The translations under genes were made by a program, and so were the position numbers. A stretch of DNA of 36,333 nt from NCBI GenBank assembly GCA_944384305.1, contig CALWSW010000005.1:1-36333 (forward strand). Direction: 5' to 3'. The notes below the pieces were generated by a model that worked only from the letters and a program-made list of their open reading frames with translations, did not search any database and had not been told where the DNA came from. Origin of the DNA: an uncultured Christensenellaceae bacterium (GTDB lineage Bacteria > Bacillota > Clostridia > Christensenellales > CALWSW01). Shown one piece after another: positions 9,286 to 15,426 of this stretch. Within the stretch, counting starts at the first letter, position 1, and every line of letters starts with the position of its first letter.

Positions 9286-10986
9286 CTATCCTTTTTCCAC
9301 CCGCAGCCCGCAGGGCGGCAGCGCGTTCTCACCATAGCAGGCATCCTCTGCCACGCAGCTGACGAACTGAAATCCGCCCGCCAGGTTTTTGCAGGAGAAC
9401 CCGTGCTGCGAAAGGATGCGGCAGGCGAGATAACTGCGCAAGCCGCTATGGCAGTTTACCACAATCTCTTTTCCCCTGGCCGGTTCCAGCTCCTGCAGGC
9501 GGCCGCGCAGCTCATCCAAAGGAATGTTCACCGCGCCCTCCAGGCGGCCGCGGGCAAATTCCTCCGGGGTGCGCACATCCAGGAGCAGCGCGTCTTGCTG
9601 CGCTTCCAGCTCGTCCCACCACACCTGCCGCACCAAGCCGGCGCGCAGGTTTTCGATCACATAACCCGCCATGTTCACCGGGTCTTTGGCCGAAGAGTAA
9701 GGCGGCGCGTAGGCAAGGTCCAGTTCGGTCAGATCCTCTGCCGTCATGCCGGCGCGGATGGCCGTTGCCAGCACGTCGATGCGCTTGTCCACCCCTTCAA
9801 AACCGACGATCTGCGCGCCCAGGATCTTCCCCGTCGCCGGGTCGAACAGCGTTTTTACGGTCATGTTGCGCGCGCCGGGGTAATAGGAAGCGTGCGAGGC
9901 AGAATAGGTGAGCGCCCGGCCGTAGGGGATGCCCGCAGCCTTGGCGGCCTTTTCGTTCAGGCCGGTGGAAGCGGCGGTCATATCGAACAGCTTGATGACC
10001 GAGGATCCCTGCGCGCCCGTGTACACGCTGGGAATCCCGCAGATATTGTCCGCCGCGATGCGGCCCTGCTTGTTGGCCGGGCCGGCCAGGGCGATGTTGG
10101 CGTCCGCCCCTGTCACAAAGTTTTTGACCTGAACGGCGTCACCCACGGCGTAAATATCGGGGTCGGCGGTGCGCATGTGCTCGTCCGTCACAATGGCGCC
10201 CTTAACCCCCAAAGCCAGCCCGGCGTCTTTGGCGAGCTTGTTTTCGGGCACGACGCCAATGGCCAGCAGCACCAGGTCGCCTTCCACGGGCTCTCCTTCT
10301 TTTAAGAGCACGCGCACACCGGTTTGGGTCTCTTCGTACCCCTGCACATTCTGGCCAAAGCGCAGGTCCAGCCCGTGCCTGCGCAAGTACCCGTGCAAAA
10401 GCGCCGCCATGTCGCCGTCCAGCGGCGGCAGCACCTGTTTGCTGCGCTGCAAAAGCGTCGTGGCCACCCCGCGGTGCAGCAGGTTTTCGGCCGCTTCCAG
10501 GCCAATGAACCCGCCGCCCACCACCACGGCGCGCCGCACGTTCTGCTCGACCACCAGATCCCTTAAGCGCAGCGTGTCCTCCACCGTGCGCAGGGTCAGC
10601 ACGCGCGCGCCGTCTACGCCGGGCAGCGCGGGCTTCATGGCCGCCGCGCCGGGCGCGAGCAGCAGCTTGTCGTAGCTTTCCTCGTATTCCCGGCCGCTCA
10701 AAAGCTCCCGCACCCGAACAGTCTTTGCCGCGCGGTCGATGGAAAGCGCCTCGCTGTGCACCCGCACGTCGATATGGAAGCGCTCAAAAAAGCTCTGCGG
10801 GGTCTGCAGGGTCAGCTCCTCTTCGTCCTCGATCACCCCGCCCACGTAGTAGGGCAGGCCGCAGTTGGCGTAAGAAACAAAGCCGCTGCGCTCCAGCACC
10901 ACGATCTCTGCCTCTTCGTTGAGGCGACGCAGGCGGGCCGCTGCCGTAGCGCCCCCCGCCACGCCGCCGATGATGACGGCCTTCAT
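9286..10986 (-). CDS. CoA-disulfide reductase with C-terminal rhodanese domain
   Basis: A 566-residue pyridine nucleotide-disulfide oxidoreductase fused to a rhodanese. The FAD loop is IIGGVAGGATAAARLRR (residues 5-21). Cys42 in SYANCGLPYYVGG is the single active-site cysteine of the CoADR/Nox class, and VVVGGGFIGLEAAENL is the NAD(P)H loop. A dimerisation domain (AYAPPYSSAKDPVN) precedes the rhodanese, whose catalytic cysteine is in VNCHSGLRSY. In characterised relatives, the enzyme reduces CoA disulfide, CoA persulfide or polysulfide, and the rhodanese passes sulfane sulfur to it. Its ATG overlaps the stop of the small rhodanese gene by 4 bases, so the two are translationally coupled. The exact substrate is inferred. 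Confidence 0.92.
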   Translation of the reverse strand: MKAVIIGGVAGGATAAARLRRLNEEAEIVVLERSGFVSYANCGLPYYVGGVIEDEEELTLQTPQSFFERFHIDVRVHSEALSIDRAAKTVRVRELLSGREYEESYDKLLLAPGAAAMKPALPGVDGARVLTLRTVEDTLRLRDLVVEQNVRRAVVVGGGFIGLEAAENLLHRGVATTLLQRSKQVLPPLDGDMAALLHGYLRRHGLDLRFGQNVQGYEETQTGVRVLLKEGEPVEGDLVLLAIGVVPENKLAKDAGLALGVKGAIVTDEHMRTADPDIYAVGDAVQVKNFVTGADANIALAGPANKQGRIAADNICGIPSVYTGAQGSSVIKLFDMTAASTGLNEKAAKAAGIPYGRALTYSASHASYYPGARNMTVKTLFDPATGKILGAQIVGFEGVDKRIDVLATAIRAGMTAEDLTELDLAYAPPYSSAKDPVNMAGYVIENLRAGLVRQVWWDELEAQQDALLLDVRTPEEFARGRLEGAVNIPLDELRGRLQELEPARGKEIVVNCHSGLRSYLACRILSQHGFSCKNLAGGFQFVSCVAEDACYGENALPPCGLRVEKG

Positions 10987-11315
10987 GCTCCTTCTCCTTC
11001 CTCCAGCTCGCCGGCGTAGCCAAACAGCCCGCCGATGTTTCTGGCCTCGTACCCCCTGCTTTTGAGCAGCCGGCAGGCGGCGCCGCTGCGCGCGCCGCTC
11101 TGGCAGTACACGTAAAGCGTTTTGCCCTGCGGCAGTTTTGAGGCCGAAAGCTCATCGAGCGGCAGGTTCAAACTGCCCTTTAAATGCCCCTGCCGGTATT
11201 CTTCCCTGGTGCGCACATCCACAAGCAGGGCGTCCTGCGCAGCGCGGTATTCCCGCAGCCCCTCTTCCAAGCCGCTTTTGCCCATCAGGCGGTCAAACAA
11301 GCCCATGTCTTTCAT
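10983..11315 (-). CDS. Single-domain rhodanese (sulfurtransferase)
   Basis: A 110-residue rhodanese-like protein with LVDVRTREEYRQGHLKGSLN and the catalytic loop YCQSGARSG (Cys71). Such proteins carry sulfane sulfur as a persulfide on the cysteine. The first 20 residues (MKDMGLFDRLMGKSGLEEGL) are amphipathic and outside the domain. AAAGGA lies just before the ATG at 11315; an ATG three codons on is the alternative. It is the first gene of a two-gene operon with the CoADR-rhodanese fusion, downstream of a Crp/Fnr gene and a matching palindrome. Confidence 0.9.
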   Translation of the reverse strand: MKDMGLFDRLMGKSGLEEGLREYRAAQDALLVDVRTREEYRQGHLKGSLNLPLDELSASKLPQGKTLYVYCQSGARSGAACRLLKSRGYEARNIGGLFGYAGELEEGEGA

Positions 11316-11340
11316 GCTTCCTTTCTTTTGCGTTGCCTTC

Positions 11341-11381
11341 AGTATACCGGCACGCTGAAAGGCCCGCCGTGACATGGTCAC
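11341..11381 (-). promoter_or_regulatory. Promoter of the rhodanese operon with a Crp/Fnr-type operator
   Basis: On the minus strand a TATACT -10 (11341-11346) has no recognisable -35. Instead a perfect palindrome GTGAC-3-GTCAC (11369-11381) is centred at 11375, about 41 bases before the predicted start near 11334. That is the classical position for activation by a Crp/Fnr dimer touching RNA polymerase, and a Crp/Fnr gene ends 7 bases away. Sequence seen directly; the binding protein is inferred. Confidence 0.72.
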
Positions 11382-11388
11382 AAAAGGC

Positions 11389-12063
11389 TCAGCGCCGCGC
11401 CTCTGCTGCCAGGGCCTGCAGGCCCGCTTCGTTCGCCAATTCCACCCGGCCGCGGCTGAGCACAACCAGCCCTTCCTGCTGGAAGTGCCGCAGCATGCGG
11501 GTGATGACCTCGCGCTGGGTGCCCATGTGGTTGGCGATCTGCTCGTGGGTAATGGCAAGGCTCTTTGCCCCGCGCAGTTCGGCCTCTTCCAGCAAAAAGG
11601 CCGCCAAACGTTCGTCCAGGCGCTTGTTCATCACCTGGTCCATCAGCCACATCACTTCCGAAAAGCGCGCGGCCATGAGCTCGCTGGTGTAGTTGGCCGC
11701 CGCGGCCGAGCGCTGCATGACCGCCTTGTAGGTCTCGGCCGGCAGGTGCAGCACCGCGGTGTCCTCCTCAGCCGAAACCAATACGTCGAATTGGATGCTG
11801 TTCATGATACAGGAGGCTGAAAACAGGCAAATATCCCGCTCGAGCAGGCGGTAGAGCGTCAGTTCCCGCCCTTCGTCAGAAAGGGTGTATACCCGCAGCC
11901 GGCCTTTGGTAACGATCATCAGGCCCACGCAGTCCTCCGCCCCGCGGTGCAGCACCGTCCCGGCGGGAAACTCCCTTTCGTCGGCCGCGCCGGCAAGCGC
12001 CGCTTTATCGGCCGCGGTCAAACCGTCCCAGAACGGCAGGTAGTCCTTGAGCTCCTTGTGCAT
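11389..12063 (-). CDS. Crp/Fnr-family transcriptional regulator
   Basis: A 224-residue regulator: cyclic-nucleotide-binding fold (about residues 15-120, PAGTVLHRGAEDCVGLMIV and GRLRVYTLSDEGRELTLYRL), a dimer helix, and a winged helix with recognition region HEQIANHMGTQREVITRMLRHF cut here to its core MGTQREVITRML. It lacks the N-terminal cysteine cluster of FNR, so an Fe-S sensor is unlikely. Three cysteines (Cys45, Cys79, Cys85) lie in the sensor domain and could react with oxidants or sulfane sulfur (inference). The start has GGGAGGA 6 bases upstream. The next genes in the same direction are the rhodanese pair, with a palindromic operator between. Confidence 0.92.
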   Translation of the reverse strand: MHKELKDYLPFWDGLTAADKAALAGAADEREFPAGTVLHRGAEDCVGLMIVTKGRLRVYTLSDEGRELTLYRLLERDICLFSASCIMNSIQFDVLVSAEEDTAVLHLPAETYKAVMQRSAAAANYTSELMAARFSEVMWLMDQVMNKRLDERLAAFLLEEAELRGAKSLAITHEQIANHMGTQREVITRMLRHFQQEGLVVLSRGRVELANEAGLQALAAEARR

Positions 12064-14322: not shown

Positions 14323-15426
14323 TCATCTTTGTTCTTCTTGAATGGCCCTTTCTATCGCGGCCAGCTGCGCTTGTAGCTCTTTCCGCCTGCCGCCGCTGAA
14401 CCATCCGCGCAGTCCGGCGATCTCCTGCAAAAGCGCCTTCTTTTGCGAATACAAAAAGGCCATCCGTTCTTTCTTCTGCGCCGCTTTTTTCTGCTCCGCT
14501 TCCCTGTGCTGGATTTCGCGTTTTTGCCGGTAAACCCTGCGCTCTTCCTCCAGTGTCTCCAAGCTGTCAAACAGCTTCCACCGAAAAACGCCGCACTGGC
14601 CCCCGGCATCCGCCCCCACTGCCGTGACCCGGCCGTCTGAGCGCAACCCCACCGTATGATCTCCTCCTGCGGCGATGCCCACGATCTCCGACCAGGCAGA
14701 AACTTCGCACTGCCCGCGCTCGTTCGCGCCGCAGGCTACAACGCTGCCGTCAGCCTTGAGGCCCACGGTGTGCTCAAACCCGGCGGCAATGGCCACAAGA
14801 TCCCGCCAGGCGGCAACTTCGCACTGTCCGCGGTCGTTCGCACCGCAGGCAACGGCGCTGCCGTCGGCCTTCAGCCCCACCGTATGGAGGGAACCCGCGG
14901 CGACGGCCACAAGATCCGTCCAGCCGGAAACGCCGCACTGCCCGCGCTCGTTCGCGCCGCAGGCCACAGCGCTGCCGTCGGCCTTGAGGCCCACGGTGTG
15001 CTCAAACCCGGCAGCAATGGCCGCAAGATCCCGCCAGGCGGCAACTTCGCACTGCCCGCGCTCGCCCGCGCCGCAGGCAACGGCGCTGCCGCCGGCCTTC
15101 AGCCCCACCGTATGGAGGGAACCCGCGGCGACGGCCACAAGGCCTGTCCAGCTGCCGACCTCGCACTGGCCCCGGGTATTTTCACCCGCGGCCACGGCGC
15201 TGCCATCGGCTTTGAGGCCCACGGCGTGCATCCTTTTGTCGCTGAGCGCCACGATCTCTGCGCCGCCGGCGCAAAGCGTCTGGCCGTAATCCTTCCGGCC
15301 CGCCGTGATCACCCAACCGTTGGCCATCAGCCCAATGGTATGTTGCCACCCCGCAGCGATCAGGACCGAAGCCCGTTTGGAACGCTCGCGCTGCAAAAAA
15401 AGCCGGCCGCTCAGATTTTCTGCCAT
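14323..15426 (-). CDS. RCC1-repeat (beta-propeller) protein with C-terminal coiled coil
   Basis: A 367-residue protein with RCC1-like repeats of exactly 38 residues. The tryptophan that begins each repeat is at positions 93, 131, 169, 207 and 245; a typical unit contains AAGFEHTVGLKADGSAVACG and RGQCEV. Degenerate repeats precede residue 93 (IAAGWQHTIGLMANGWVITA, residues 23-42). The last 85 residues are charged and helical, a probable coiled coil (VYRQKREIQHREAEQKKAAQ). No signal peptide or membrane helix, so probably cytoplasmic. AAAGGAG lies 8 bases before the ATG. The closest functional idea is a protein-interaction scaffold; the partner is unknown. It stands alone between spoIVA and a flavoreductase. 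Confidence 0.85.
   Translation of the reverse strand: MAENLSGRLFLQRERSKRASVLIAAGWQHTIGLMANGWVITAGRKDYGQTLCAGGAEIVALSDKRMHAVGLKADGSAVAAGENTRGQCEVGSWTGLVAVAAGSLHTVGLKAGGSAVACGAGERGQCEVAAWRDLAAIAAGFEHTVGLKADGSAVACGANERGQCGVSGWTDLVAVAAGSLHTVGLKADGSAVACGANDRGQCEVAAWRDLVAIAAGFEHTVGLKADGSVVACGANERGQCEVSAWSEIVGIAAGGDHTVGLRSDGRVTAVGADAGGQCGVFRWKLFDSLETLEEERRVYRQKREIQHREAEQKKAAQKKERMAFLYSQKKALLQEIAGLRGWFSGGRRKELQAQLAAIERAIQEEQR
14695..15150 (-). repeat. Two tandem 228-bp repeats inside the RCC1 gene
   Basis: Residues 93-168 (14923-15150) and 169-244 (14695-14922) are two copies of a 76-residue, 228-bp block. Each block holds two different 38-residue RCC1 units. By eye the DNA copies are almost identical, including synonymous positions, while the two 114-bp units within a block differ more. 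This points to a recent block duplication or gene conversion. Confidence 0.85.

Follow-up and report, generated by a model that had tools for sequence, protein, structure and literature searches.

The 36,333-nucleotide stretch analysed here (the window) comes from an uncultured Christensenellaceae bacterium and carries, on its minus strand, a gene for a Crp/Fnr-type regulator next to a rhodanese operon. The features of this locus are:

11389..12063 (-): Crp/Fnr-family regulator, 224 aa (Pfam HTH_Crp_2 2.4e-16, cNMP_binding 1.9e-10)
11369..11381 (-): predicted operator GTGACCATGTCAC (gene orientation), GTGA-N5-TCAC type, centre -41 (from sequence; motif and geometry kept in orthologs)
11341..11346 (-): -10 element TATACT (from sequence; 22-bp spacing shared by 48 of 76 related promoters)
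11317..11322 (-): Shine-Dalgarno AGGAAG of the rhodanese gene (from sequence)
10983..11315 (-): single-domain rhodanese, 110 aa, active-site loop CQSGAR (Cys71) (Pfam Rhodanese 1.9e-15)
9286..10986 (-): CoADR/persulfide-reductase-type flavoprotein with C-terminal rhodanese domain (TIGR03385 4e-147; Pfam Pyr_redox_2, Rhodanese)

Along the minus strand the order is thus the crp/fnr gene, the palindrome, 22 bp, TATACT, the Shine-Dalgarno sequence, rhodanese and the CoADR-rhodanese fusion. The palindrome, a perfect GTGAC-N3-GTCAC that reads GTGACATGGTCAC on the forward strand (11369-11381), starts just 7 bp past the crp stop codon. With TATACT, 22 bp further on, set at -12 to -7, its centre falls at -41; it occupies the place of the -35 box of the rhodanese/CoADR promoter, in which no TTGACA-like hexamer was found. 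A preliminary description of this DNA had reported the palindrome, its position about 41 bases before the predicted start without a -35 element, and the adjacent Crp/Fnr gene, and all three were recovered here. The predicted reductase appears to be of the CoADR-RHD/Npsr/CoAPR kind, i.e. a flavoprotein with a single active cysteine (Cys42 in SYANCGLPY) and a C-terminal rhodanese domain with its own active cysteine (Cys512 in CHSGLR). Its TIGR03385 score of 490.5 bits lies under the model cut-off of 578.8, and the fusion can therefore be named only as CoADR/persulfide-reductase type. Elsewhere in the window (14323-15426), near spoIVA, lies a gene for a 367-aa protein with six RCC1-type repeats (PF13540), uncommon for a bacterium.

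The perfect palindrome occurs four times in the 2.07-Mb genome of this organism, compared with once for the reversed control, and copies with one mismatch showed no excess (24 vs 32 in the control). By itself the window palindrome is weak evidence for an operator; conservation at orthologous loci lifts the predicted site far beyond chance. Three of the four perfect copies precede redox genes. At a desulfoferrodoxin/superoxide reductase gene 32 bp separate the site from TACAAT, which puts its centre at about -51. In a divergent region the site has its centre near -61 relative to either promoter; one of the two serves an encapsulin (PF04454) and a short ferritin-like cargo-type protein (G000:C28; L211 5024-6218). 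The fourth copy, at the 3' end of a PTS-EI-like gene (L004), was dismissed as chance. A one-mismatch operator, GTAACATTGTCAC, precedes trxA, with exactly 22 bp between it and the -10 box TATCCT; ccdA and a TlpA-like gene follow trxA (L225, G000:C130, 1668-3634).

For comparison, 119 loci carrying orthologous regulators were collected, 59 by similarity and 60 by profile from 391 evenly sampled Clostridia genomes. Around these regulators (∼119) GTGA-N5-TCAC was observed 115 times, against about 15 in shuffled sequence, and N5 was the sole enriched spacing in all three ortholog subsets (60 vs 6, 25 vs 6 and 30 vs 2). The canonical CRP/FNR spacing, N6, was at chance in the same loci (12 vs 16 shuffled), and other half-sites (TTGA, GTTA, GTAA and others) gave no comparable spacing peak there. 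The inner two bases are nearly always Y and R. These counts give the operator as GTGA-N5-TCAC, with half-sites one base pair closer together than in a CRP/FNR site; this non-canonical spacing had escaped the preliminary description.

Promoter geometry was also conserved. Among 76 distinct operator-bearing promoters, read in gene orientation, there are 48 in which exactly 22 bp separate the 13-mer from a TATAAT-like box downstream (at least 5 of 6 positions), where 1000 shuffles gave a mean of 1.6 and a maximum of 6; in a further 10 the box is at 21 bp. No -35 hexamer was found in these 76 promoters, and the window promoter matches the main 22-bp class exactly. There is also a small second -10 peak 33 bp past the site (promoters of L006-L064 and L100-L159); this distance, like the 32 bp at the superoxide reductase gene, is one helical turn beyond class II. 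The site is not universal: some close orthologs, those of the Lacrimispora group, lack an N5 site out to about 5 kb, and few N5 sites occur in a distant clade of the regulator (loci L190-L208, about 145 bits), which, judged from coordinates, tends to adjoin CoADR in several genomes. The operator of this clade may differ.

Occurrence of the site follows that of the regulator. In the 391-genome sample the extended motif GTGAYNNNRTCACRGAA was present in 36 of 67 genomes with a strong regulator match compared with 34 of 304 without one (odds ratio 9.2, p 3e-13), although in this strict form it reaches only those 36 of the regulator-positive genomes. The preliminary description had proposed a search for the palindrome before the rhodanese/CoADR operons of relatives; an N5 site was present in 37 of the 43 loci where CoADR adjoins the regulator. 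Considered by genome, the site stood upstream of CoADR genes in 5 of the 15 genomes with the regulator and in none of the 20 without it (one-sided p about 0.009), and in two of these five the regulator lies on a different contig.

Genes directly behind N5 sites were mostly those of thiol and oxidant metabolism. Thioredoxin occupied this position at 38 loci, often with rhodanese and CoADR next in line; then came the regulator itself (9 loci), rubredoxin/rubrerythrin-type proteins (7), 4Fe-4S ferredoxin (6), CcdA/DsbD (5), SDR (3), ferredoxin-thioredoxin reductase beta (3) and AhpC (2), with OsmC among the single cases. TrxB-like flavoproteins (trxB) were also among the targets. The proposal that the locus is a sulfane-sulfur or thiol-stress unit is essentially supported: the predicted targets are those of a thiol/oxidant-stress regulon, one that is broader than sulfane-sulfur handling. 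The known persulfide sensors CstR, SqrR, BigR and FisR govern rhodanese, CoADR/CoAPR-type and persulfide enzymes through cysteine chemistry, and are of CsoR, ArsR or NtrC type, with folds unrelated to Crp/Fnr. The present genome also encodes a CsoR/CstR-family protein (PF02583), which may be a persulfide or a copper sensor, at another location (G000:C28:6107-6346).

The regulator itself scored above cut-off for Pfam PF00027, PF13545 and PF00325, and the top hits of a fold search were all Crp/Fnr proteins, which places it in that superfamily. Its recognition helix has the form G-x-x-REVxTR with R184-E185 invariant in the family; R184, E185 and R189 match R180, E181 and R185, the residues with which CRP reads GTGA (PMC1274295). 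The sensor domain has departed from the CRP pattern. In place of the phosphate-binding cassette stands the segment CLFSASC, the cAMP-contact residues are gone (GE...RSA of Thermus CAP, 4ev0, aligns with SA...QFD of the regulator) and position 91 across the family is Q, T or P. CRP-type cAMP sensing was therefore rejected, as the Glu/Arg/Ser cassette that contacts cAMP is not conserved, and CRP identity was rejected on the operator as well, GTGA-N6-TCAC being at chance and N5 enriched. The regulator lacks an N-terminal FNR-type cysteine cluster and is not an FNR.

Cys45, Cys79 and Cys85, to which the preliminary description had drawn attention, are the only cysteines of the window regulator. 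None of the 56 close orthologs lacks any of them, and essentially every one of the ∼136 members has all three; this holds for the distant clade as well. The first ortholog set was partly fetched by peptide patterns containing Cys, but the profile-searched sets were not, and most members beyond the 56 came from this unbiased search. No fourth invariant Cys or His was found among the ∼136 members; loss of His39 from the distant clade speaks against a Cys3His metal site. In an AlphaFold model (pLDDT 84.9, pTM 0.61) Cys79 lies in a short strand and Cys85 in a short helix after that strand. Two family members (L056 and L059) are broken by frameshifts, which are possibly sequencing errors or decay. 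The fixed -41 geometry, the tracking of regulator by site and the three near-invariant cysteines together bear out the earlier suggestion that a Crp-type activator works from a class II site, as far as sequence comparison reaches.

The best fold match, and a clear ortholog (E 8.5e-76), is PDB 3dv8 (EUBREC_1222 of Eubacterium rectale, from structural genomics), whose CLLSASC segment and Cys45 equivalent match those of the window regulator. We found no functional study of it (targets, operator or signal) in the literature beyond its use as the template for PgRsp. Among characterised proteins, Cmr of Mycobacterium tuberculosis (Rv1675c) is controlled by thiol chemistry rather than cAMP, as proposed here, and adjoins thiol-redox genes, dsbF and rv1676; it differs in having two cysteines (36 and 131), a canonical TGTCA-N6-TGACA operator and DNA binding that is weakened by oxidation or nitrosation (PMC5499769), and its similarity to the window regulator is only about 27 bits. 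HcpR1 and HcpR2 are likewise Crp/Fnr stress activators of anaerobes without the FNR cysteine cluster, but recognise TGTGA-N6-TCACA or GTAACnnnnGTTAC, control hcp and frdX and respond to nitrosative stress (PMC1274295, PMC12915319). PgRsp of Porphyromonas gingivalis, an anaerobe's oxidative-stress Crp/Fnr regulator modelled on 3dv8, has 207 aa, binds heme and targets hmu and bcp, its motif not being defined (PMC6955866). The sites of CRP, Cmr and HcpR are all even-spaced, unlike the one described here (PMC5499769, PMC1274295). By these sequence characters the regulator is a Crp/Fnr protein, yet not CRP, FNR or HcpR. A published description of the N5 operator, of this regulon, or of a Crp/Fnr protein with persulfide/CoADR or thioredoxin/rubrerythrin genes was not found in a search of mainly open-access literature.

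We propose, with a probability of roughly 0.7, that a Crp/Fnr protein without cyclic-nucleotide sensing activates a thiol/oxidant regulon through GTGA-N5-TCAC, most likely switched by the chemistry of Cys45, Cys79 and Cys85. The regulator would belong to a Clostridia-wide subfamily that lost cyclic-nucleotide sensing, and its dimer would bind the operator and activate transcription, mostly from -41 (class II, substituting for the -35 element) and sometimes from one or two helical turns further upstream. The sequence comparison establishes the operator, the promoter geometry, the regulon, the GTGA-reading helix, the linkage of site to regulator and the constancy of the three cysteines; direct binding, activation rather than repression, and cysteine chemistry as the signal are what we infer. 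The activated genes would comprise thioredoxin, thioredoxin reductase, CcdA, ferredoxin-thioredoxin reductase, rhodanese, CoADR/persulfide reductase, rubrerythrin-type proteins and AhpC, joined in the present genome by superoxide reductase and the encapsulated ferritin-like protein. The signal would be cysteine-based, the switch most likely being disulfide or persulfide/polysulfide formation on the three sensor-domain cysteines, so that oxidised or sulfur-loaded thiols would induce the very enzymes that reduce them. Since the targets reduce disulfides, persulfides, peroxides and superoxide, a thiol sensor induced by its own oxidation or persulfidation is the simplest reading. There is precedent in Cmr, the Crp/Fnr neighbour of dsbF that is under thiol control (PMC5499769), and in an Acinetobacter Crp-like protein that is persulfidated (PMC7315123). 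Persulfide, disulfide, peroxide, heme or Fe-S chemistry are all candidate signals, and sulfane sulfur is one possibility of several. A more specific version, in which a distinct subfamily has turned its cNMP pocket into a three-cysteine persulfide/polysulfide sensor, with an odd-centred 13-bp operator, and serves as a main thiol/oxidant-defence activator of Clostridia that, like this one, yielded no PerR/Fur protein, is tentative and on balance doubtful.

Two alternatives keep the regulator and its targets and change the sensor. Heme, with a Cys-thiolate ligand, could sit in the former cNMP domain and respond to redox or to NO, CO or O2. CooA is among the nearest solved structures, with its heme-ligand segment aligned to CLFSASC, and heme is bound by PgRsp, the oxidative-stress Crp/Fnr regulator whose best template is 3dv8 (PMC6955866); HcpR, as cited there, also employs heme. 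We nevertheless regard this as unlikely: no His is conserved (His39 being absent from the distant clade), PgRsp heme binding survived single replacements of Cys76, Met78 and His85, no hcp or NO-detoxification gene is among the predicted targets of N5 sites, and the invariant cysteines number three rather than one. Alternatively, the cysteines could be ligands of an Fe-S cluster labile to oxygen or NO, with FNR-like logic but another ligand arrangement, so that activity would change once the cluster is damaged or lost; this would suit three invariant sensor-domain cysteines in a Crp/Fnr protein of anaerobes and targets that are oxidant-defence genes. FNR, however, has four cysteines in a different arrangement, the family shows no fourth invariant Cys or His, and 3dv8 was deposited as a plain Crp/Fnr regulator, which makes a cluster quite improbable.

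That we are dealing with a known nitrosative-stress activator of the HcpR type (HcpR2), for which the rhodanese operon is a side target, is very improbable. HcpR2 is widespread in Clostridia and of the same superfamily, but its sites are GTAACnnnnGTTAC, read with Pro at position 181 (PMC1274295). Membership, as marked by Pro/Ser/Gln at 181 and a GTAACnnnnGTTAC-type operator before hcp, was rejected, as the three-cysteine family keeps R184-E185 invariant, uses the GTGA half-sites of GTGA-N5-TCAC and has no hcp among its targets. A chance palindrome beside a regulator that acts elsewhere was a reasonable concern for the window by itself, given that a genome of such size should contain a perfect palindrome of 10 bases about once; the motif, its spacing, the -10 distance and the co-occurrence with the regulator across many families refute it, and its probability is negligible.

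Taken as a cysteine-switched activator, this type of regulator, common to many Clostridia, very probably induces thioredoxin, rhodanese and oxidant-defence genes through its three cysteines. The 5-bp half-site spacing is unlike that of every Crp/Fnr operator compared, and thus offers a structural test case for how a dimer re-registers on DNA. The analysis defines a family of regulators and supplies an operator with which any genome can be scanned, together with three residues for mutagenesis. It bears on PerR-independent control of thioredoxin, rhodanese/persulfide reductases, superoxide reductase and rubrerythrins in strict gut anaerobes. No Fur/PerR-family protein was found in the present genome (assembly about 81% complete), and the regulator may carry much of its oxidative-stress control.
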